Part shown: positions 435 to 44,484 of the stretch, in pieces
Numbering within the stretch: position 1 is the first letter of the stretch
Layout: every line of letters starts with the position of its first letter
Assembly (NCBI GenBank): GCA_004297465.1
Contig: SCUB01000020.1
Location: 164,183-228,182 of the forward strand
DNA from: Xanthobacteraceae bacterium
GTDB taxonomy: Bacteria > Pseudomonadota > Alphaproteobacteria > Rhizobiales > Xanthobacteraceae
DNA length: 64,000 bases
Direction of reading: 5' to 3'
The notes under the pieces: generated by a model
The model's input: only the letters and a program-made list of their open reading frames with translations
The model's database searches: none
Told to the model about the DNA's origin: nothing
Made by a program: the position numbers and the translations under genes

Positions 435-1757
435 GTGCATAGGATAATTCTGCGCATATTCATGCCAGCGTATGCCGTGATGGTGGGCGCTTACGATTCA
501 GCTTCGGCACAGCAAGTTGTCAAGATAGGCCTGCTCATGGCCTATACCGGACAATTTACAGAACCCGCCACTCAAATGGACAATGGAATAAAGCTCTACA
601 TGAAGGAGCACGGTAATATCGTTGCAGGCAAGAAGATCGAAGTCATCCGCAAAGATACCGCTGGCGCACCCGACACGGCAAAGCGAATGGCTCAAGAACT
701 GATCGTTAAGAATGACGTGAACATTCTCGCAGGGTTCGTCATTACGCCTGAAGCCTTGACCGTTGCCGATCTTTCGGCAAACGCAAGGAAGCTCATGGTC
801 GTAATGAATGCCGCAACCTCGATCATTACGACGATGTCGCCCTACATCACCCGCTCATCGATGACTCTGCCGCAAAATACCAGCCAGCTTGGCTTGTGGG
901 CGGCGCGCAAGGGGATCAAGCGCGTGTTCACATTGGTTTCTGATTATGCGCCGGGACACGATGCTGAAAACACATTTCAAGAAGCATTCAAGTCAGCGGG
1001 AGGGCAAATTGTGGGTTCGACTCACATGCCGCTGACAAATCCTGATTTCTCTCCTTTTGTCCAGCGTGCCAAGGATTCCAATCCCGACGGCATCTTCATC
1101 TTTGTGCCCGGTGGTTCACAGCCACCGGCTTTGGCGAAGGCGCTCATCGAGCGTGGTATAGATCCTAAGACGACCACAATCATGGGGCAGGGCGAAATCG
1201 CCGATGAGAGTTCATTGCGCGCACTCGGCGAGCAGGCTGAGGGAATGGTTACAGCTTTTCATTATGACTATGCACATTCCTCCGCGAAGAATGTTGCGTT
1301 CGTTACGGCCTACAATAAAGCGTTCCAACGCAATCCAGACTTCTATGCCGTCGGTGGCTATGACGGCATGCACCTGATCTACGAGGCACTCAAAAAGACC
1401 AACGGCAATACCAATGCCGAGGGGCTGATTGCTGCGATTAAGGGCATGAAGTGGGAAAGTCCGCGTGGCATGGCGGCGATCGATCCGGAAACTCGCGATA
1501 TCATCAATACCGTGTATATCCGCGAGGTGCATAAGGTTGACGGCAAGATGCTCAACGTTGAGATCGAGAAAACTGAAGGTGTAATAGATCCGGTCAAAGC
1601 ACGCATGAGAGTGCCTGCGGGGTCGGGAAATGGCGGCCGGTTACCATGCGGCAGACCTTGCGGTAGGCGGCGCCGGACCAGACATCGCCGTACCTTAGAG
1701 CCGGTACAGTTTCCTATGATTACGCACCCCTTGCCGAGCCAAGAGCAGCGAGGCTAG
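435..1757 (+). CDS. ABC transporter substrate-binding protein (branched-chain amino acid type), copy 1, with aberrant C-terminus
   Basis: Periplasmic solute-binding protein of the LIV/Peripla_BP_6 family. The GTG start at 435 is chosen because a strong GGGGGGA ribosome site lies 5 bases upstream and a signal peptide (about residues 1-25, ending SASA-QQ) follows. Residues 27 to about 390 align along their whole length with the second binding protein at 11522-12697, including the shared GGYDGMHLIYEALKKT stretch. The last roughly 50 residues do not: after VDPVKAR-like sequence (near base 1607) the tail becomes Arg/Gly/Cys-rich and unlike any binding protein, ending at TAG 1755-1757. The native stop seems to have been lost at a recombination or deletion junction, because the 3' end of a thioesterase gene follows directly. 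The domain itself is complete, so the product could still function. Its cognate permease is not in the immediate neighbourhood. Confidence 0.85.
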   Translation: MHRIILRIFMPAYAVMVGAYDSASAQQVVKIGLLMAYTGQFTEPATQMDNGIKLYMKEHGNIVAGKKIEVIRKDTAGAPDTAKRMAQELIVKNDVNILAGFVITPEALTVADLSANARKLMVVMNAATSIITTMSPYITRSSMTLPQNTSQLGLWAARKGIKRVFTLVSDYAPGHDAENTFQEAFKSAGGQIVGSTHMPLTNPDFSPFVQRAKDSNPDGIFIFVPGGSQPPALAKALIERGIDPKTTTIMGQGEIADESSLRALGEQAEGMVTAFHYDYAHSSAKNVAFVTAYNKAFQRNPDFYAVGGYDGMHLIYEALKKTNGNTNAEGLIAAIKGMKWESPRGMAAIDPETRDIINTVYIREVHKVDGKMLNVEIEKTEGVIDPVKARMRVPAGSGNGGRLPCGRPCGRRRRTRHRRTLEPVQFPMITHPLPSQEQRG

Positions 1758-1910
1758 CTGCGCTTTATCGGCAGCGTTGAAGACAACCTCCGCCTTGAAG
1801 CCGTATCCACGCTGGTCAAGATCTGTCTTGATGATGGCGCTGCGTGCTCAATCCCCTCGGACCTCCGTGCACGCATGGAATCTTATGAGGCCGGCAAGCG
1901 GGCTGTTTGA
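1758..1910 (+). pseudogene. 3' fragment of a 4HBT-family thioesterase gene
   Basis: Directly after the TAG of the preceding gene, and in the same frame, 50 codons ending at TGA 1908-1910 encode LRFIGSVEDNLRLEAVSTLV and further residues. This is nearly the same as the last 50 residues of the intact thioesterase at 13115-13567. Nucleotide similarity starts abruptly at CTGCGCTTTATCGG (1758 against 13415) and by eye is near 88% up to about 1898. The 5' two thirds of the gene, including the TDPAGYVFFPRYF active-site region, is absent. The piece is the remnant of a second binding-protein/thioesterase pair and should not give a functional enzyme. Confidence 0.85.
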
Positions 1911-1914
1911 GCTT

Positions 1915-3120
1915 TCATGGCGCTGCGCACCGATCGGCGGAGCGCTGATCTTCGATCACCTTCGAGCCGATGATCAGCTTCAGAACTTCGCTGGCGCCCT
2001 CATAGATCCGCAGCGCTCTGATCTCGCGGTAGAGTTTCTCGACGGGCATGCCATGCACGACGCCGAGGCCGCCAAACAATTGCACGGCGGCGTCGATCAC
2101 CTGCTGCGCCGCTTCCGTGGCGAACAGCTTGGCGGTCGAGGCTTCCCGGGTCACCCGCGTGCCCCTGACGTCCTTGGTCCAGGCGGCCCGGTAGACGAGC
2201 AGGGCCGCGGCATCGATAGAGACAGCCATGTCGCCAAGTTTGCAGCGCGTCATCTGGAAGTCAGCCAATACCTGACCAAACATGCGGCGCTCAAGGGAGC
2301 GGCCGACCGCCTCGTCCATCGCCCGCCGGGCCAATCCAAGCGCCGTCGCGCCGACTGTCGAGCGGAAGATGTCCAGTGTCGACATCGCGATCCTGAACCC
2401 GTCGCCGCCGAAGCCGATGCGGTTCTCCGCGGGGATCCAGCAATCGGTAAGCCGCAGTGTTCCCAACGGGTGAGGGGCGATCACGTCGATTCTCTCGCCA
2501 TCGTCCAGGCCGGCGGTGTTGGCCGGCACGATGAAGGCGGACAGACCCCTGGACCCGCTGCCATTCCCTTCCTGGGCGAAGACGACGTAGTAGTCGGCCA
2601 GACCGGCGTTGGAGATCCAGGTCTTGACGCCGTTGAGGCGCCAGCCGTCGCCGTCCTGCCGCGCCCGCGTTGAAATGGCCGCGACGTCCGAACCGGCGTC
2701 CGGTTCTGAAAGGGCGAAGGCGCCAATCCGGGTGCCGGCCGCGATGCCTGGCAGAATGGAGCGCTTCTGCTCCTCGCTGCCGAACAGGCTGATGGGAGCG
2801 CTTCCAAGCCCTTGCGTGGCGAATGCGAAATCCGCCAGGCCGGAATGGTATCCCAAGGTTTCCCGGGCGAGACACAAGCTCCGGGTGTCGAGCACTTCCC
2901 GCGTTCCGCCGTAGGCGGCAGGAACGCAGGAGCGCAGGAGGCCGGCCTTGCCCAGTTCGCCGACCAGCCGGCGGACACAGAGATAGACCGCGTCGGCGTC
3001 TTCTTCGGCCCCTTCGAGAAGGGGAGGAAGGCTGTCCGTCGCCCACTGCTTGAAGGCATGCGCCAGTTCCAGGTGACCGTCATCGAAGAACGGCCAGTCG
3101 AGACAGTCCCGGCTCACCAT
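1915..3120 (-). CDS. acyl-CoA dehydrogenase
   Basis: FAD-dependent acyl-CoA dehydrogenase of 401 residues, forming a 2,3-double bond in an acyl-CoA. Both family signatures are visible: GAFALSEPDAGSD near residue 137, and the C-terminal GGLGVVHGMPVEKLYRE followed by RIYEGASEV, where the Glu sits at the place of the catalytic base of medium- and short-chain dehydrogenases. The frame is open further upstream, but the start is placed at 3120 because this ATG overlaps the TGA of the upstream crotonase (TGATG), the usual coupled arrangement. It is the last gene of an eight-gene minus-strand operon (10067 to 1915). With the BadH-like SDR and the hydratase it could act on an alicyclic or branched acyl-CoA, an AliB-like role. 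The substrate is inferred. Confidence 0.88.
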   Translation of the reverse strand: MVSRDCLDWPFFDDGHLELAHAFKQWATDSLPPLLEGAEEDADAVYLCVRRLVGELGKAGLLRSCVPAAYGGTREVLDTRSLCLARETLGYHSGLADFAFATQGLGSAPISLFGSEEQKRSILPGIAAGTRIGAFALSEPDAGSDVAAISTRARQDGDGWRLNGVKTWISNAGLADYYVVFAQEGNGSGSRGLSAFIVPANTAGLDDGERIDVIAPHPLGTLRLTDCWIPAENRIGFGGDGFRIAMSTLDIFRSTVGATALGLARRAMDEAVGRSLERRMFGQVLADFQMTRCKLGDMAVSIDAAALLVYRAAWTKDVRGTRVTREASTAKLFATEAAQQVIDAAVQLFGGLGVVHGMPVEKLYREIRALRIYEGASEVLKLIIGSKVIEDQRSADRCAAP

Positions 3121-36075: not shown

Positions 36076-36822
36076 ATGTTCAAGCGTATCATCCTTGATC
36101 GCGATCGCCGCGCGCTGCTGGGCGCGGCCGGCGCGCTCGTTCTGCAAGTGGTGCTGCGCCCGACAACCGCGCTGGGGCAGGCGGCCGCTCCCCCGATGAA
36201 AATCGGCGTCATTGGCGCGGGCCATATTGGCGGCACGGTCGGCGGCCTCTGGGTCAAGGCGGGCCATCCGGTCTTCTTCTCCTCGCGTCATCCCGATGAG
36301 CTGAAGGGTCTTGTCGCTGGCCTGGGTCCTCTTGCCCAGGCCGGTGCGGTCGATCAGGCGATCGCGTTTGGCGACGTCGTCTTTATCGCGGTGCCTTACG
36401 GCGCGATGCCGCAGATCGGGGTGGATTACGGCAGATCGCTGGCCGGCAAGATCGTGCTCGATGCCGGCAATGCTGTCGCCAGTCGCGACGGCGCCATCGC
36501 TGACGAGGCCGAGCGCGACGGCATCGGCGTCACCTCGCAGAAATATCTGCCCGGTGCACAACTGGTGCGTGCGTTCAACACGCTCTCCTATACGATCTTC
36601 GCGCGCGAGGCGAGCCGCCCCGCGCCAAGACTCGCGGTGCCCATTGCCGGCGATGATCCGGAGGCGGTGCAGGTTGCCGCGGGGCTGGTGCGCGATGCCG
36701 GCTTTGATCCGGTTGTGGTCGGCAGGCTGGCCGATGCGCGCCGCTTCCAGCGCGGCGGGCCCGGATACGGCCAGAATGTGAGCGCGGCCGAGCTCAGACA
36801 GAAACTGTCGCTGGCGCCATGA
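36076..36822 (+). CDS. NADP-binding oxidoreductase with apparent Tat signal (F420-dependent NADP reductase-like fold)
   Basis: Protein of 248 residues. After the N-terminal segment [20 protein letters not shown] and ALGQAAAPP, which reads like a twin-arginine signal, comes a Rossmann domain KIGVIGAGHIGGTVGGLWVKAGHPV, then VFIAVPYGAMPQ and LVRAFNTLSYTIFARE. The fold is that of the NADPH:F420 oxidoreductase / YqcZ-type family, normally cytoplasmic. The His/Arg after the motif (SSRHPDE) suggests NADP binding. Export of a nucleotide enzyme is unusual. Its stop overlaps the start of the MFS gene by 4 bases, making a three-gene operon with an aldo/keto reductase. A wrongly chosen start, at the inner Met before KIGVIG, would remove the signal. 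Confidence 0.82.
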   Translation: MFKRIILDRDRRALLGAAGALVLQVVLRPTTALGQAAAPPMKIGVIGAGHIGGTVGGLWVKAGHPVFFSSRHPDELKGLVAGLGPLAQAGAVDQAIAFGDVVFIAVPYGAMPQIGVDYGRSLAGKIVLDAGNAVASRDGAIADEAERDGIGVTSQKYLPGAQLVRAFNTLSYTIFAREASRPAPRLAVPIAGDDPEAVQVAAGLVRDAGFDPVVVGRLADARRFQRGGPGYGQNVSAAELRQKLSLAP

Positions 36823-38096
36823 CAGCGCTTCAGAATTGGCTGCAGCGTGCTGTGCCGGCGACACCGCGGGAGCGCGCGGCGGCGCTGTGGTCATTCGCCT
36901 ATTTCTTTACGCTGCTGGCCGGTTACTACGTGTTGCGCCCGCTGCGCGACCAAATGGGAATAGCCGGCGGTGTCAGGAACCTGCCGTGGCTCTTCACCGC
37001 GACATTTGCCAGCCTGCTCATCGCGCAGCCGCTCTATGGCGCACTGGTGGCAAGGCTGCCGCGGGTCAGGTTCATACCCATCGTCTATCATTTCTTTGTC
37101 GCCAACCTGATGCTGTTCTGGTTGCTGCTGATATTCGGCATCGCGGAGGTGATTGTCGCGCGTGTATTCTTTGTCTGGATCAGCGTGTTCAACCTGTTCG
37201 CGGTTGCCGTGTTCTGGTCGTTCATGGCCGACCTGTTCAATGCGGAGCAGGGCAAGCGGCTGTTTGGCTTCATCGGCGCCGGCGGCACGGCCGGAGCGCT
37301 GCTCGGGCCCGTCCTTACGATCGGGCTGTCGGTTCCGCTCGGCGCCGTCAATCTGCTGATCGTGGCGGCTGTCTTCCTCGAACTTGCTGTATTCAGTGTC
37401 CATCGGCTTGAGCCCGCGGCCAAGGCGCCGGAATCAGCGAATCTCGAACAGCGCGTGGGCGGGAGTGCTTTCGCGGCGTTGCCCGAATTGATCCGCTCGC
37501 CTTATCTCTTAGGCATGGCCGCCTGGGTCAGCCTGCTCTCATTCGGCGCGACGATTGCCTATTTTGCGCAAGCCAACATTGTTTCGGCTTCAATCCAGGG
37601 CGCGGCGGCCCAGACACGCATCTTCGCGAGCATCGATCTTGCCGTCGGTCTGCTGACTTTGGCGACGCAGGTTTTCGCCACCGGCAGGTTCCTCAAGCGT
37701 TTCGGCACGGGCATGGCCGCCGGCATGCTGCCGATGGTCTACATCGTGGGCTTTGCCGCGCTGGCGATCGCACCGAGCCTCATCGTCGTGGTGATGCTCC
37801 AGGTCGCGCAGCGCTGGATGAATTTCGCCATCGCGAACCCGGCGCGTCAGGTATTCTTCACGGTGGTCGGGCGCGAGGAGAAATACAAGGCCAAGAATCT
37901 GATCGACGTCGTCATCTATCGCGGGTCGGACGCGGTCTATGGTTGGGTCTACGACAGCCTGCAGGCGCTGGGGCTCAAACTCGGCGCGATCGTGCTTTGC
38001 GCGCTTCCGGTCGTGGCCGGTTGGCTTGTGCTTTCCGCGGCATTGGGGCGGGCCCAGGAACATCGCGCAACGGAACAGAACGGCGAAGGAGATTAG
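36819..38096 (+). CDS. MFS-type transporter resembling NTP/NDP exchangers
   Basis: Membrane protein of 425 residues with about twelve hydrophobic segments. The N-terminal stretch LWSFAYFFTLLAGYYVLRPLRDQMGIAGG and the later FVWISVFNLFAVAVFWSFMADLF and QGKRLFGFIGAGGTAGALLGP are features of the bacterial proteins annotated as NTP/NDP exchange transporters (ATP/ADP translocase-like) within or near the MFS. True activity of these bacterial relatives is mostly untested. It is sandwiched, with a 4-base overlap and a 2-base gap, between two predicted exported nucleotide-dependent oxidoreductases, which makes nucleotide or cofactor transport an attractive but unproven role. Confidence 0.82.
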   Translation: MTALQNWLQRAVPATPRERAAALWSFAYFFTLLAGYYVLRPLRDQMGIAGGVRNLPWLFTATFASLLIAQPLYGALVARLPRVRFIPIVYHFFVANLMLFWLLLIFGIAEVIVARVFFVWISVFNLFAVAVFWSFMADLFNAEQGKRLFGFIGAGGTAGALLGPVLTIGLSVPLGAVNLLIVAAVFLELAVFSVHRLEPAAKAPESANLEQRVGGSAFAALPELIRSPYLLGMAAWVSLLSFGATIAYFAQANIVSASIQGAAAQTRIFASIDLAVGLLTLATQVFATGRFLKRFGTGMAAGMLPMVYIVGFAALAIAPSLIVVVMLQVAQRWMNFAIANPARQVFFTVVGREEKYKAKNLIDVVIYRGSDAVYGWVYDSLQALGLKLGAIVLCALPVVAGWLVLSAALGRAQEHRATEQNGEGD

Positions 38097-38098
38097 AG

Positions 38099-38998
38099 AT
38101 GTCGACAAGCCGAATAACCCGCCGGGACTTCGCCGTCCTCGCCGGCGCGGCGCTGGTGTCGCCCGTGGCCATCGCCCAGACCGATGCACCGCTTGTCATG
38201 CGCGCAATTCCCCATGGCGGTGAGCGCGTTGCGGCCGTCGGCCTTGGCACCGCTCGCGTGTTTGATGTCAATGACGAACCGACACGGCGCAAGGCCGCCG
38301 CGGTCGTGCAGGCTCTGACTGCGAATGGCGGACGACTTGTCGATACGGCTTCGACTTACGGAGACGCCGAGGCCGTGCTGGGCGCCATCATCGCCGACGC
38401 GGGTCTGCGCGACAAGCTCTTCATCGCCACCAAGCTCGAATCGCCCAACGCTGAAGAGCTCAAGCGTTCGTTGGCGCGGCTCAAGATTGCCGAGGTCGAT
38501 CTGCTGCAGCTGCACAATGTCAGAAGCACGCAGCAATCCCTCGCGGCATTCAGGGGGTGGAAGGAGCAAGGTATATGTCGCCATGTCGGCATTACGTCGA
38601 CATACCATCGCGATTATCCCGCGGTTGAGGCCGTGCTCAAACGCGAAAAACCGGATTTCGTGCAAATCGACTATTCGCTCGATAACCGCGCGGTCGAGAA
38701 AAGCATCCTGCCGCTGGCCGCCGACGTCGGCGCCGGCGTGCTGATCGCATTGCCTTTCGGCCGCGGCCGATTATTCCGTGCCGTGCGGGGCAAGGAGCTT
38801 CCCGACTGGGCGCGGGTCTTCGCCAACAGCTGGGGACAATTTTTCCTGAAATATCTGCTTGGCGATGCGCGCGTGACGGCCGTGATACCCGGGACCGCTG
38901 ATCCCGGCCATATGACGGACAATGCCGACGCGATGCGCGGCCCGCTGCCCGATTCCGATCAGCGCCGCCGAATGGTCGACTTTGTCGAGGCGCTTTGA
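38099..38998 (+). CDS. aldo/keto reductase with Tat signal
   Basis: NADP-dependent aldo/keto reductase of 299 residues. The N-terminus SRITRRDFAVLAGAALVSPVAIAQT is a textbook twin-arginine signal with an AxA-type cleavage site. The catalytic tetrad is visible: Asp and Tyr in VDTASTYG, Lys in IATKLES, His in LLQLHNV. The C-terminal part FLKYLLGDARVTAVIPGTADPGHM is family-typical. The start is ATG 38099, with GAAGGAG 11 bases upstream; the longer open frame overlaps the MFS gene. It is the third gene of the operon 36076-38998. Periplasmic Tat-linked aldo/keto reductases are known in Proteobacteria, but how NADP(H) would be supplied there is an open question. Confidence 0.88.
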   Translation: MSTSRITRRDFAVLAGAALVSPVAIAQTDAPLVMRAIPHGGERVAAVGLGTARVFDVNDEPTRRKAAAVVQALTANGGRLVDTASTYGDAEAVLGAIIADAGLRDKLFIATKLESPNAEELKRSLARLKIAEVDLLQLHNVRSTQQSLAAFRGWKEQGICRHVGITSTYHRDYPAVEAVLKREKPDFVQIDYSLDNRAVEKSILPLAADVGAGVLIALPFGRGRLFRAVRGKELPDWARVFANSWGQFFLKYLLGDARVTAVIPGTADPGHMTDNADAMRGPLPDSDQRRRMVDFVEAL

Positions 38999-39140: not shown

Positions 39141-39587
39141 ATGATTGCACCCATGGCGCTTAGGCACCGGCTAGCAGCACTGATCTGGGCAGCGATCCTT
39201 GTGGTCGCGGCGCAGTTTATTGCCGGCTCCGCCTTCGCCCATTCGGCGCATTCGGGACACGCTCACCATCAATCGGCTGCGGTCTCTTCGCCGTCCCATA
39301 CCGAGCACAACTTCCGTTCTTCCGCCGAAGCGCAGCCTGTCCAGGCGGAAAAATCGGTTGAGAGCTTCATCGCACTCGGCCAGACCGACCAGCCCGCAGC
39401 GCCATCAGGAAACTGCACCGGGGGTTGCTGCGGAAGCGGGATCGGCTGCTGCGGCGCCGTTCTCGCGGGCTCATTGAATGCGCTCTCAAGCCTTGGGCGC
39501 GCGAGAGAAATTGTTTCCATTACTTTTGAGCGCGGCTTGGGCATAGACCCCGAAGCACTGGCGCGACCTCCCAGAATCCTCGCCTAG
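39141..39587 (+). CDS. small secreted His- and Cys-rich protein of the RND metal-efflux operon
   Basis: Protein of 148 residues with a signal peptide (about 1-33, ending GSAFAHS). The mature start is His-rich (HSAHSGHAHHQ), and a Gly/Cys cluster CTGGCCGSGIGCC lies at about residues 98-110, followed by a hydrophobic segment. These residues suit metal binding in the periplasm. I do not know the family by name. It runs with the adaptor and CzcA-like genes, 78 bases upstream of the adaptor. The 142 bases before it hold no gene; no clear metal-regulator box was identified. Confidence 0.75.
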   Translation: MIAPMALRHRLAALIWAAILVVAAQFIAGSAFAHSAHSGHAHHQSAAVSSPSHTEHNFRSSAEAQPVQAEKSVESFIALGQTDQPAAPSGNCTGGCCGSGIGCCGAVLAGSLNALSSLGRAREIVSITFERGLGIDPEALARPPRILA

Positions 39588-39665
39588 ACGCCTGCTTGCG
39601 CGCGTGCGCAAGCCGCTGCCGGCAATTCCGCCGGGAGCTTGACGCGGACTGCGAGGATTCTTGTC

Positions 39666-41342
39666 ATGCGACTTCATTATACGTGCGCGCTCATGGCGAT
39701 GCTCGTGCTTGCCGTGCCTTCCCAGCGACTGTCGGCGCATGAGGGCCACGACCACGGGACAGCCACACCCACCGTTGTTCTTCCGGCGCAGCCGCGTGCG
39801 GAGGCTGCATCAAAGGCGTTTGAACTCGTCACGATCGCCAAAGCTGGCGAGTTGACGATCTACCTGGATCGCTTTGCCACGAACGAGACTGTGCCCGACG
39901 CGGCCATCGCGCTGGAAACTCCGCAAGGAAGCGTGGATGCGAAGCGCGCGGGCGATGGAACCTATCGCTTGGCGGCACCGTGGGCCGCCACCCCGGGCCG
40001 CTACGATCTGATCGCAACGGTCAAGAAAGACGGCGTTTCCGACATCCTTGCCTTCACGATCGAGATTCCGCCTGCGCAGGCTCCCACCGCAGCCTCGCCA
40101 GGCTACACAAGCACTGCCATGGCCCTCGGAAACAGGGATCGGATTGCGGCAAGCAATCCGGGCGCGATGGTCGCCGCGATCGGCGCCTTTGTCGTCGGTG
40201 GAATCGGAGGCATGTTTATCGCCAGGCGACGGCGGGCGGTGCAGGTCATGGTGGCGGTGACGCTGACGCTGACACTCGTACAGGCTGCATTCGCGCACGA
40301 AGGCGAGGACCACGGCAATCCCGCACTCGCGCAACCAGCCGGGACGCGGGACACGGCGCAACTCTTGGCGGACGGGAGTGTGTTCGTCCCGAAGGGCACG
40401 CAGCGCATTCTTGCCATTCGTACGATCGTTTCCGAGCCGTCCGCGTACCGCCGCACTGTCGAGCTTCCCGGCCGTATCATTCCGGACCCCAATGCAAGCG
40501 GATTCGTGCAAGCGGCGGTCGGCGGCAGGCTGTCGTCTCCCGAGGGAGGATTCCCGCGGTTAGGAACGCCCGTGAAGAAAGGTGATGTGCTTGCCTACGT
40601 AACGCCGCCCTTGCAGGCGATCGACGTCTCCACGATGCGCCAGCAGCAGGGCGATCTCGATCAGCAGATCTCGATCGTCGAGCGCCGCCTTGCTCGTTAC
40701 GAAACCCTTGCGCCGAGTGGTGCCGTCGCGCGCTCCCAGCTTGAGGAGGCCCGTCTCGAACTGCAGGGATTGAAAGGCCGCCGCGCCTCGCTCGACAAGG
40801 TCAGGCGCGAGCCGGAAGCCCTCGTTGCTCCGGTCGACGGCATCATCGCGGACGGAACTCCCGTCGCCGGACAGATTGCCCAGACAAATGCTGTGGTCTT
40901 CCACATCATCGATCCTGCCCGGCTTTGGATCGAAGCCTTGAGCTACGAGTCTTTGCCTGCGTTGCAGCGCGCCACGGCGCGGGCGGGCGACAAGGAATTG
41001 GGATTGGCGTTTCGGGGCGCCGGCTTTGCAGACCGCAATCAGTCGATTCCGATTCACTTTGCTCTTGAAGGCGATGTGTCCGGAATTCGCGTCGGCCAGT
41101 TCGTGACCGTGTTCGCGGAAACCCCGGAGGAGCAACGGGGGCTTGCCGTTCCGCGCACCAGCATCGTGCGAACCGCGTCGGGACAGGATTCGGTCTACGA
41201 GCATGTTGGCGCCGAACGGTTCGAATCGCGCCCGGTTCGAATCGAGCCGCTCGATGGGCAGCGCGTGCTGATCTCTCAGGGGCTGTCGCCCGGCAAGCGC
41301 ATCGTCGTCCAGGGTGCCGAACTTATCGATCACGTCCGGTGA
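39666..41342 (+). CDS. RND efflux periplasmic adaptor (CzcB/CusB-like) with extra N-terminal domain
   Basis: Membrane-fusion protein of 558 residues, longer than usual (about 380-420). After a signal peptide (about 1-27) comes an extra domain of about 150 residues, then a membrane segment AAIGAFVVGGIGGMFIARRRR at about 178-198 and a second export-like stretch ending AAFAHEGEDHGN. The classical adaptor follows: barrel-sandwich GRLSSPEGGFPRLGTPVKKGDVLAYV, a coiled coil with QQGDLDQQISIVERRLARYE, and a beta-barrel. The start is ATG 39666 because GAGG lies about 10 bases upstream; an in-frame TTG lies at 39639. It precedes the pump gene by 10 bases. The His-rich stretches suit metal handover. Confidence 0.87.
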   Translation: MRLHYTCALMAMLVLAVPSQRLSAHEGHDHGTATPTVVLPAQPRAEAASKAFELVTIAKAGELTIYLDRFATNETVPDAAIALETPQGSVDAKRAGDGTYRLAAPWAATPGRYDLIATVKKDGVSDILAFTIEIPPAQAPTAASPGYTSTAMALGNRDRIAASNPGAMVAAIGAFVVGGIGGMFIARRRRAVQVMVAVTLTLTLVQAAFAHEGEDHGNPALAQPAGTRDTAQLLADGSVFVPKGTQRILAIRTIVSEPSAYRRTVELPGRIIPDPNASGFVQAAVGGRLSSPEGGFPRLGTPVKKGDVLAYVTPPLQAIDVSTMRQQQGDLDQQISIVERRLARYETLAPSGAVARSQLEEARLELQGLKGRRASLDKVRREPEALVAPVDGIIADGTPVAGQIAQTNAVVFHIIDPARLWIEALSYESLPALQRATARAGDKELGLAFRGAGFADRNQSIPIHFALEGDVSGIRVGQFVTVFAETPEEQRGLAVPRTSIVRTASGQDSVYEHVGAERFESRPVRIEPLDGQRVLISQGLSPGKRIVVQGAELIDHVR

Positions 41343-41352
41343 GGAGGGCGCC

Positions 41353-44300
41353 ATGTTCCGATTTCTCGTCACGCACTCCTTGCGCAACCGGCTGTTCGTC
41401 CTGGCCGCGGCGATAGCGCTGGTCGCCTATGGATTGTTCACCGTTGCCCGCCTGCCTGTGGATGTCTTTCCCGATCTGAACAAGCCGACCGTCACGATCA
41501 TGACCGAGGCGGAGGGGCTTGCGCCCCCCGAGGTCGAGCAACTCGTCACGTTTCCGATCGAGACGCAAATGAACGGCGTGCCCGGGGTATCCCGAGTGCG
41601 CTCCGTTTCCGGAGTGGGGTTGTCGATCGTCTATGTCGAGTTTGACTGGGGTACCGACGTCTACCGCAACCGACAGCAGATCGGAGAACGGCTCGCCCTG
41701 ATCCGCGAGCAACTGCCTCCGAACACGACTCCGCAAATGGGACCCATCAGTTCCATCATGGGGCAAATTCTGCTTGTGGCGGTCACCAGCACGGAAGCCA
41801 CTCCCATGGAGGTGCGTGAGGCGGCCGATTTTGTTATCAGACCGCGTCTCCTCACGATCCCTGGGGTAGCTCAGGTCATCCCGATGGGCGGCGAGGTTCG
41901 TCAGTATCGCGTTTCTCCGAATCCGCCCGCGCTGCGCGCCTTGAATGTGACCTATGATCAGGTCGAAAAGGCTCTCGCCCTGTTCGGTGCCAACGCCGGC
42001 GGCGGCTTCACGGACCAGTATTCGCGCGAGTACCTGATCCGCAACATTGGCCGCACCACCAGTCTCGAGGATTTACGTAACGTTGTCGTTGCGAGAGTAA
42101 ACGGCGGTCCGATCTATCTGTGGCAAGTGGCCGGTGTCGAGTTCGCGCCGAAGGTCAAGCGGGGCGACTCCGGATATATGGGCGCATCCGCCGTAATCGT
42201 GTCGATCGAAAAACAGCCGAACGTCGACACCGTTCGGCTGACCCGTGAGATCGAACAGGCGCTGAAAGACGTCACCAACACGCTGCCGAAGGGCATCAAG
42301 GCCGATCAGATCCTGTTCCGGCAGGCGAATTTCATCGAGACCTCAATCCGCAATGTCGAGCGGGTGCTGTTGGAAGCCGGGCTGGTGGTGGCCGTCGTGC
42401 TGTTCGCGTTCCTTCTGAACTGGCGAACAACGGCCATCTCGCTGACCGCCATTCCGGTTTCGATCCTCACCACCGCCGTCGTGTTTCATCTGTTTGGTCT
42501 GTCGATCAATACGATGACACTGGGCGGACTTGCCATTGCAATCGGCGAGTTGGTGGACGACGCGGTTGTCGATGTCGAAAATATCTTCAGGCGTCTGCGG
42601 GAAAACCGCGAAGCGGGAAACCCACGCTCGGTCATCGACGTGATCATCTTGGCCTCTCAGGAGGTCCGGTCGGGCATCGTCTACGCGACGACCATTATCA
42701 TTCTTGTATTCGTTCCGCTGTTCGCGCTGTCGGGAATCGAGGGGCGGCTCTTTGCGCCGCTCGGCGAGGCTTACATCATTTCAATCCTCGCCAGCCTTTT
42801 GGTCTCGATCACGCTTACGCCGGTGATGGCCTACTACATGTTGCCGGGGATCAGGCAACTGAAGCATGGCGACAGCGCCTTGGTCCGCGTCCTCAAACGA
42901 TGGAATAAGCACCTGCTGGGCCTGGCGTTCCGGCATAGGGGCGCGGTGTTCGCCATCGTTGCACTCGCGATCGTGGCGGCCGGCGCGGGTGCCATGCTCC
43001 TGCCCAGGGCCTTCCTGCCCCCGTTCAACGAAGGCACCTTCACGATCAACATGCTGTTCAACCCCGGAATCTCGCTTTCCGAATCCCATCGGGTCGGTCT
43101 CATTGCCGAGCGTCTGATTCTTGAAGTGCCCGAGGTGAAAGCGGTTGGGAGGCGGACGGGGAGGGCCGAACTTGATGAGCATGCCGAGGGAGTTCATTCG
43201 TCGGAGATTGAAGTCGACCTGAAAAGCGGTGGCCGTTCCAAGGCGGAGATCATTGACGATCTGCGCGGCCGGCTGGCTGTCCTGCCTGTATCGACGAACG
43301 TCGGCCAACCGATTTCGCATCGACTGGACCATATGCTGTCGGGCGTGCGGGCCCAGATTGCCCTCAAGATATTCGGCGACGACCTCGACTCTTTGAGGAC
43401 GACGGCTGAACGGCTTCGTCAGCGATTATCGAACATCCCCGGGCTCGTCGACTTGCAGGTCGAGAAGCAGGTTCGAATTCCGCAGCTGGAGATTCGTGTC
43501 GATTACAGGCGTGCCGGGCTTTATGGCGTGCAGCCCGCCACCGTCGTCGATCAGATCAGCCGGTTGTCGAACGGCCGCGTCATCTCACGCGTCGTCGACG
43601 GCTATCGTCGCTTCGACGTCACGCTGCGACTGCCGGACCGCCTCCGCACCACGCAGAAGCTCGGTGACCTGCTCATCGAGACTCCAGTCGGGTGGATCCC
43701 CGCCCGACAGATCGCGGACATCCGCGAAACGGACGGCCCAAACCAGATTCTGCGCGAAAACGGGCGGCGCCGTGTCGTCGTGCTCGCCAACACGGACGGC
43801 CGCGCCGATATGGCGAAGGTGGTCGGAGCCATTCGGCGGGAACTCGCCTCGGTCAAGCTGCCCGAAGGCTCATTCACGCAGCTGGAAGGCACGTTCCAGG
43901 CTCAGGAGGAAGCGACCAGGATGATCGGAGCGCTTTCCGTCCTGTCGCTCGGGATGATCTTCGCCATCCTGTATAGTCGTTACCGGTCGGCGGCGCTGGC
44001 GCTCATCATCATGGGCAACATTCCGCTCGCCCTCATCGGCTCGGTGATCGCGCTTTGGCTGGCGGGTCAGCCGCTCTCGGTTGCGTCGATGATCGGCTTT
44101 ATCACGCTTGCCGGCATCGCCGCCCGTAACGGTATTCTCAAGATCAGCCACTACATCAACCTCGCGCTTCACGAGGGAATGCCGTTCGGTCGCGATCTGA
44201 TTGTTCGGGGCAGCCTCGACCGCCTGACGCCGGTCTTGATGACGGCGCTGTCGGCGGGCCTGGCGCTGTTGCCGCTCCTCATCGATCCCGCTTCGCCCGG

Positions 44301-44484
44301 CAAGGAGATCCTGCATCCGGTGGCAGTGACCATCTTCGGCGGCCTGATCAGTGCGACCTTGCTCGACGCCATCCTGACGCCGCTACTGTTCCTGCGTTTT
44401 GGCGAAACACCCCTGCAACGGCTTCTTGCTCCTCTGGAACAGCACACCTCGGAGCGGCCGGCAGTCATCACCGAAGCTTTCTAG
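41353..44484 (+). CDS. heavy-metal efflux RND pump (CzcA/CusA family)
   Basis: Inner-membrane proton-driven pump of 1043 residues. Family features: VARLPVDVFPDLNKPTVTIMTEAEGLAP at the N-terminus (the PDxxxPxVxI motif), VEQLVTFPIE, and TM4 with AIGELVDDAVVDVENIFRRLREN. Against CzcA (D-x5-D-x6-E), the first Asp is Ala, as in CusA, while the VDD pair resembles hydrophobe exporters. The metal cannot be read from this alone, but the His/Met-rich neighbours favour copper or silver. The start at 41353 (MFRFL) is preceded by GAGGAGGG. The operon continues with two small exported proteins. No outer-membrane TolC/CzcC partner is in the operon. Confidence 0.9.
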   Translation: MFRFLVTHSLRNRLFVLAAAIALVAYGLFTVARLPVDVFPDLNKPTVTIMTEAEGLAPPEVEQLVTFPIETQMNGVPGVSRVRSVSGVGLSIVYVEFDWGTDVYRNRQQIGERLALIREQLPPNTTPQMGPISSIMGQILLVAVTSTEATPMEVREAADFVIRPRLLTIPGVAQVIPMGGEVRQYRVSPNPPALRALNVTYDQVEKALALFGANAGGGFTDQYSREYLIRNIGRTTSLEDLRNVVVARVNGGPIYLWQVAGVEFAPKVKRGDSGYMGASAVIVSIEKQPNVDTVRLTREIEQALKDVTNTLPKGIKADQILFRQANFIETSIRNVERVLLEAGLVVAVVLFAFLLNWRTTAISLTAIPVSILTTAVVFHLFGLSINTMTLGGLAIAIGELVDDAVVDVENIFRRLRENREAGNPRSVIDVIILASQEVRSGIVYATTIIILVFVPLFALSGIEGRLFAPLGEAYIISILASLLVSITLTPVMAYYMLPGIRQLKHGDSALVRVLKRWNKHLLGLAFRHRGAVFAIVALAIVAAGAGAMLLPRAFLPPFNEGTFTINMLFNPGISLSESHRVGLIAERLILEVPEVKAVGRRTGRAELDEHAEGVHSSEIEVDLKSGGRSKAEIIDDLRGRLAVLPVSTNVGQPISHRLDHMLSGVRAQIALKIFGDDLDSLRTTAERLRQRLSNIPGLVDLQVEKQVRIPQLEIRVDYRRAGLYGVQPATVVDQISRLSNGRVISRVVDGYRRFDVTLRLPDRLRTTQKLGDLLIETPVGWIPARQIADIRETDGPNQILRENGRRRVVVLANTDGRADMAKVVGAIRRELASVKLPEGSFTQLEGTFQAQEEATRMIGALSVLSLGMIFAILYSRYRSAALALIIMGNIPLALIGSVIALWLAGQPLSVASMIGFITLAGIAARNGILKISHYINLALHEGMPFGRDLIVRGSLDRLTPVLMTALSAGLALLPLLIDPASPGKEILHPVAVTIFGGLISATLLDAILTPLLFLRFGETPLQRLLAPLEQHTSERPAVITEAF

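Follow-up and report, generated by a model that had tools for sequence, protein, structure and literature searches.

The Tat system carries folded, cofactor-loaded proteins, and Sec substrates cross the membrane unfolded. The glucose-fructose oxidoreductase of Zymomonas, a Tat-exported, NADP-dependent member of the Gfo/Idh/MocA family, takes its cofactor along, and we know of no dedicated transporter that serves it. Known members of the STEAP / F420:NADP oxidoreductase family are, to our knowledge, all cytosolic or cytosol-facing. Carriers of the ATP/ADP translocator (NTT) family, known from chloroplasts and Chlamydia, are a further point of reference; those characterised so far are a small subset, and the functions of the fused NTTs of free-living bacteria are unknown (PMC5381601). 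One NTT-family protein, NTT4 of Protochlamydia, carries NAD+ and NADH and imports NAD+ (PMC3831814). A 2024 paper on the Caulobacter ceramide reductase CerR describes a periplasm without free NADH and leaves open where the reducing equivalents come from (PMC11087976).

Here we describe a cluster of three genes on the + strand, at 36076-38998 of a 64,000-nucleotide stretch of DNA from a Xanthobacteraceae bacterium (the window), that may bring these themes together. As in the Zymomonas case, a Tat-exported, NADP-dependent enzyme is proposed, of another enzyme family, and as with CerR a periplasmic NAD-type reductase with an open electron source is at issue, although the enzymes differ. The open-access literature that we searched, which misses most subscription journals, yielded no published account of a cluster of this transporter with exported enzymes, and nothing in it on Tat-exported aldo/keto reductases with an MFS transporter, or on periplasmic NADPH, describes such a system.

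A three-gene cluster with two putative Tat substrates

The ORF bounds of the cluster are exact, and its features are as follows.

36076..36822, + strand: gene 1, Rossmann protein of 248 aa with a Tat signal, F420/NADP-oxidoreductase-like and STEAP-like (PF03807, E 1e-13)
36076..36183, + strand: putative twin-arginine signal region of gene 1 (sequence; conservation of R11-R12)
36819..38096, + strand: gene 2, MFS transporter of NTT-like type with 425 aa and 12 TM helices, for which we propose transport or exchange of NAD(P)(H) (profile and fold)
38099..38998, + strand: gene 3, Tat-signal aldo/keto reductase (AKR), 299 aa, tetrad D82/Y87/K112/H139 (PF00248, E 1e-30)
38099..38179, + strand: putative twin-arginine signal region of gene 3, MSTSRITRRDFAVLAGAALVSPVAIAQ (sequence; equivalent signals in homologs)

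Genes 1 and 2 share an ATGA (a 4-base overlap) and genes 2 and 3 are separated by a 2-base gap. ORFs, Pfam matches and signals bear out the initial annotation, which had two twin-arginine oxidoreductases flanking an MFS protein in overlapping or nearly touching genes. Gene 1, whose PDB relatives include STEAP3 (2vns) and the F420-NADP oxidoreductase (FNO) 5n2i, belongs to the STEAP / F420:NADP oxidoreductase family but carries an export signal. We judged the Tat signals of genes 1 and 3 by sequence and conservation, and an S/T-R-R-x-F-L-K-like motif, an h-region and a cleavage site can all be recognised; partners at other loci were scored with a home-made heuristic. The predicted signal of gene 1 contains ...ALGQA, with R11-R12 kept in >95% of aligned homologs, that of gene 3 is ITRRDFAVLAGAALVSPVAIAQ, and the genome has a gene for TatC. 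Because signals and gene order are kept in homologs, the cluster is not a product of chance. Elsewhere in the window, 39141-44484 encodes a small exported protein rich in His and Cys, then a membrane-fusion protein and an RND pump resembling CzcA; on reading, this is probably a metal efflux operon.

The transporter is related to ATP/ADP translocators

Profiles were needed to place the gene 2 protein: a single-sequence search of Pfam returned MFS_1 as the sole match, below the cut-off, and a single-sequence search of the PDB found no relative. With a profile of ten homologs, the ADP/ATP carriers 9j3n/9j3j became the top PDB matches (5.5e-11), and they remained the best with a later homolog profile, A3 (9j3n, E 2.5e-13; 9j3j, E 5e-11). 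The Pfam family TLC (PF03219) matches 4/10 homologs, the best at 2e-6, and does not match the window protein itself. An AlphaFold model built from 73 sequences (pLDDT 93.5) has 12 long helices, and its Foldseek ranks 1-3 are all ATP/ADP translocator entries, representing two proteins, at TM-scores of 0.78-0.81. Profile and fold thus confirm that the gene 2 protein is related to nucleotide exchangers, in line with the features of NTP/NDP exchangers read into the middle protein at the outset.

Set against the ATP/ADP translocators (Chlamydia pneumoniae NTT1, Arabidopsis NTT1; PDB 9j3n, 9j3l), gene 2 has the 12-helix MFS fold in common, a basic residue at the LRDTKD/LRPxRD position and a KxK...D motif in a late helix, but identity is 15-18%, the protein is shorter and lacks a Pfam TLC match, and it shares its operons with exported oxidoreductases, in hosts that are not parasites. 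It shares the NTT family with Protochlamydia NTT4, which serves NAD import in an intracellular bacterium and for which we know of no linkage to exported NAD enzymes. Ten charged residues are invariant, all of them within helices (E18, R40, R43, R332, R343, K357, K359, D363, R368 and D371), a pattern that would fit a phosphorylated substrate.

Linkage of the transporter to NAD(P) enzymes

The initial annotation had called for a search for conservation of gene order and signals, and the association is indeed kept across transporter homologs. At least 593 relatives of the transporter occur in the genome collection, and 205 extracted loci gave 189 distinct transporter places with usable neighbourhoods, which we divided by profile score into close (>=450, n=139), middle (280-450, n=34) and remote (<280, n=16) homologs. 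An NAD(P)-family enzyme lies on the same strand within two genes of the transporter for 119/139 close homologs, 13/34 middle ones and 0/16 remote ones. No partner was detected beside 20/139 close homologs; our counts depend on local HMMs and on a simple gene caller based on codon usage, and some of the apparent absences are gene-calling misses. The median gap between transporter and partner is 29 bases, and 40/145 adjacent partners overlap or touch. Hosts are dominated by Pseudomonadota and extend to Thermodesulfobacteriota, Nitrospinota, Gemmatimonadota and Acidobacteriota.

In six of the genomes with the transporter, none of 30 ordinary MFS loci had an exported NAD(P) neighbour, two having signal-less SDRs, and the difference is strong by Fisher's test (p 3e-20), which treats genomes as independent when they are not. 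The partner families were moreover picked because they occur beside the transporter, and the genomes are phylogenetically non-independent. In a second control set, of 141 distant genes, the AKR matches are apparently second AKRs of betaproteobacterial loci, most of them with Tat-like signals. These two controls rule out a chance neighbourhood. In a 289-genome sample of the class, the AKR clade is present in 9/9 transporter-positive genomes as against 37/280 others. The linkage of the transporter with exported NAD(P) enzymes is solid.

Several loci depart from the usual arrangement. In the betaproteobacterial loci L033, L037, L043 and L044, another AKR of the exported type lies within a few kilobases of the transporter. 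L119-L122 represent a group of NTT-like MFS proteins that is more distant and is coupled to a small membrane protein of ~116 aa (MSLIALLLTVLVAVLHLYFLVLEMFLW...), which we take to be DUF1304-like, and not to an NAD(P) enzyme. Two transporter homologs are broken by a frameshift or stop, L050 at 1701-3111 (Bradyrhizobium sp. NAS80.1) and L118 (in-frame TGA), and are either assembly errors or decaying genes.

The neighbourhoods bear on two other ways to read the transporter. It might exchange adenylates, other nucleotides or sugar phosphates, with only an indirect tie to the enzymes; kinship to NTTs is in keeping with this, as is the fact that NTT roles in free-living bacteria are largely unstudied (PMC5381601), but the repeated, almost always exported NAD(P) enzyme neighbours would be left unexplained, and we regard it as improbable. 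More improbable still is that the cluster uses inward transport to salvage NAD(P), whole or in fragments, from outside: NTT4 of Protochlamydia offers a precedent in its import of NAD+ (PMC3831814), but the partners are oxidoreductases, and the neighbourhoods that we read showed no recognisable gene for a nucleotidase or an NAD-hydrolysing enzyme next to the transporter.

Partner families change while the transporter stays

Five families of partner were found: AKR, FNO, extended SDR, classical SDR and NmrA-like SDR. The commonest is the AKR, often together with an FNO-like protein. Extended SDRs occur at L029, L081, L086 and L103, classical SDRs at L177, L180, L189, L190, L202, L203, L205 and L164, and NmrA-like proteins at L010 and L173, and at L118 a lipoprotein SDR lies directly upstream of the transporter. 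What all the partner families have in common is that they depend on NAD(P) and carry a signal for export. On the transporter tree (FastTree; single placements are tentative) 36 changes of the partner label are required, with about four separate entries of classical SDRs. A plasmid cluster of Azotobacter chroococcum (pAcX50f; L160, 2026-6059) combines a Tat-signal SDR, a metallo-beta-lactamase-fold protein, the transporter and an F420-reductase-like gene.

Tat, Sec and lipoprotein signals of the partners

Nearly all intact partners carry export signals. The heuristic called Tat signals in 89/111 AKRs, 28/32 FNOs and 4/4 extended SDRs; most AKRs scored as having none are truncated where the locus ends, and in a few others the heuristic overlooked a visible twin-arginine motif. 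The partners seen without a signal are an AKR on the Pantoea plasmid pPAT9B03 (L161) and the second-position SDRs of L163 and L205. SDRs on the opposite strand or farther from the transporter are for the most part signal-less. Within six genomes, 21 other AKRs had no signals whereas 6/6 transporter-adjacent AKRs had one (Fisher p 3e-6, genomes taken as independent), two of these six signals being of a single-arginine kind. A consistent lack of signal peptides in homologs would have spoken against exported enzymes, and what we find is that the signals are kept. Single-arginine, Tat-like AKR signals (S/T-R-A-x-F-L-R/K, the second Arg replaced) recur at L006, L007, L034, L045, L058, L061, L063, L069, L071, L074, L210, L212, L215 and L218, and are possibly variant Tat or Sec signals.

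The main rival to cofactor supply is that Tat exports the enzymes pre-loaded with tightly bound NADP(H), while the MFS protein carries their substrate or product. Most AKR and FNO partners do use Tat, many alphaproteobacterial exported AKRs do without an NTT-like transporter, and, speculatively, genes 1 and 3 could recycle bound cofactor through a coupled reaction. But for most of the classical and NmrA-like SDR partners the signal lacks RR and is of the Sec or lipoprotein type (Sec/lipoprotein partners are those at L177, L180, L164, L203, L205, L173, L190 and L118). Such partners are presumably exported unfolded and without bound cofactor; since passage through Sec is unfolded, they would have to meet their cofactor in the periplasm, which counts against pre-loading as a general solution. 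Five families, presumably with different substrates, share one conserved transporter, which has nucleotide exchangers as its best relatives. The swapping of partners from unrelated NAD(P) families, together with Sec and lipoprotein export, thus favours cofactor supply over pre-loading by Tat. The initial annotation had itself offered export by Tat with bound cofactor as its alternative; this idea keeps its footing in the Tat signals of most AKR and FNO partners and loses it with family swapping and the Sec/lipoprotein partners, and we think it unlikely, though it deserves to be taken seriously.

Catalytic and cofactor sites

The exported enzymes look active, because the AKR tetrad and the FNO GxGxxG are conserved. 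At each tetrad position (D82, Y87, K112 and H139) no more than one of about 107 partner AKRs deviates, and the FNO-like partners retain GxGxxG (G47/G49/G52) in 33/33 and an Arg after strand 2 (R71) in 32/33. NADP use by the AKR is uncertain: the positions that contact the 2'-phosphate, placed by eye on the canonical motif, hold Gly/Ala and His/Tyr and not the usual Lys/Arg, so that NAD and NADP are not distinguishable.

DUF6064 as a second membrane partner

In the alphaproteobacterial sample, 37 genomes have the AKR clade without the transporter, and the idea that every exported AKR needs an NTT-like transporter is rejected on these grounds. In such transporter-less alphaproteobacteria, exported AKRs commonly adjoin a DUF6064 membrane protein (26 loci, among them a few repeats of the same genome). 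The protein, of ~225 aa, lies immediately beside a same-clade Tat AKR in genomes without the NTT-like transporter (the alphaproteobacterial loci L222, L226, L228-L235 and L237-L249, and L317-L330), and 15/21 DUF6064 loci are paired with Tat AKRs; no membrane partner accompanies four signal-less alphaproteobacterial AKRs. In contrast to the transporter, DUF6064 was accompanied by no NAD(P) family other than AKR in the loci seen, and the open-access literature searched held no mention of it. AKR-only genomes, many with DUF6064, imply that the NTT-like transporter is not indispensable for exported AKRs. DUF6064 could be an unrelated replacement or have some other role, and its pairing tempers the hypothesis of an NAD(P)(H) transporter.

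Possible supply of cofactor to the periplasm

In the mechanism that we propose, the NTT-like carrier would pass nicotinamide nucleotides, as NAD(P)H, NAD(P)+ or both, through the inner membrane. It would probably work by exchange, letting reduced cytoplasmic cofactor out and taking spent periplasmic cofactor in, in the manner of ATP/ADP translocators, which trade charged against spent adenylate. The products of genes 1 and 3, presumably exported (here by Tat), would draw on this periplasmic pool and could reduce aldehydes, ketones or other acceptors. We infer the substrate, direction and exchange mode of the carrier, the choice of NAD or NADP and the enzyme substrates. That gene 2 encodes a nicotinamide-nucleotide transporter or exchanger serving exported NAD(P) oxidoreductases seems to us the hypothesis to prefer, at about an even bet. 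A periplasmic nicotinamide redox system with its own transporter had been suggested from the window alone; NTT kinship, the preserved linkage and signals, and partner swapping all lend it weight, and its transport step is what we infer from them.

What a cofactor shuttle would mean

The broader proposition is that free-living bacteria maintain a nicotinamide-nucleotide pool dedicated to the periplasm, which an NAD(P)H/NAD(P)+ exchanger of NTT descent would feed, serving exported oxidoreductases of several families as a redox shuttle. We advance it more tentatively, as falling a little short of an even chance. Free NAD(P)H is assumed to be absent from the periplasm, a rule that a transporter supplying it would, if real, overturn. 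If true, the proposal would answer how exported NAD(P) enzymes can work in the periplasm, and would assign a function to one branch of a group that has hardly been studied, the NTT-like carriers found in free-living bacteria (PMC5381601). Such a carrier might also become a tool for periplasmic redox biocatalysis.
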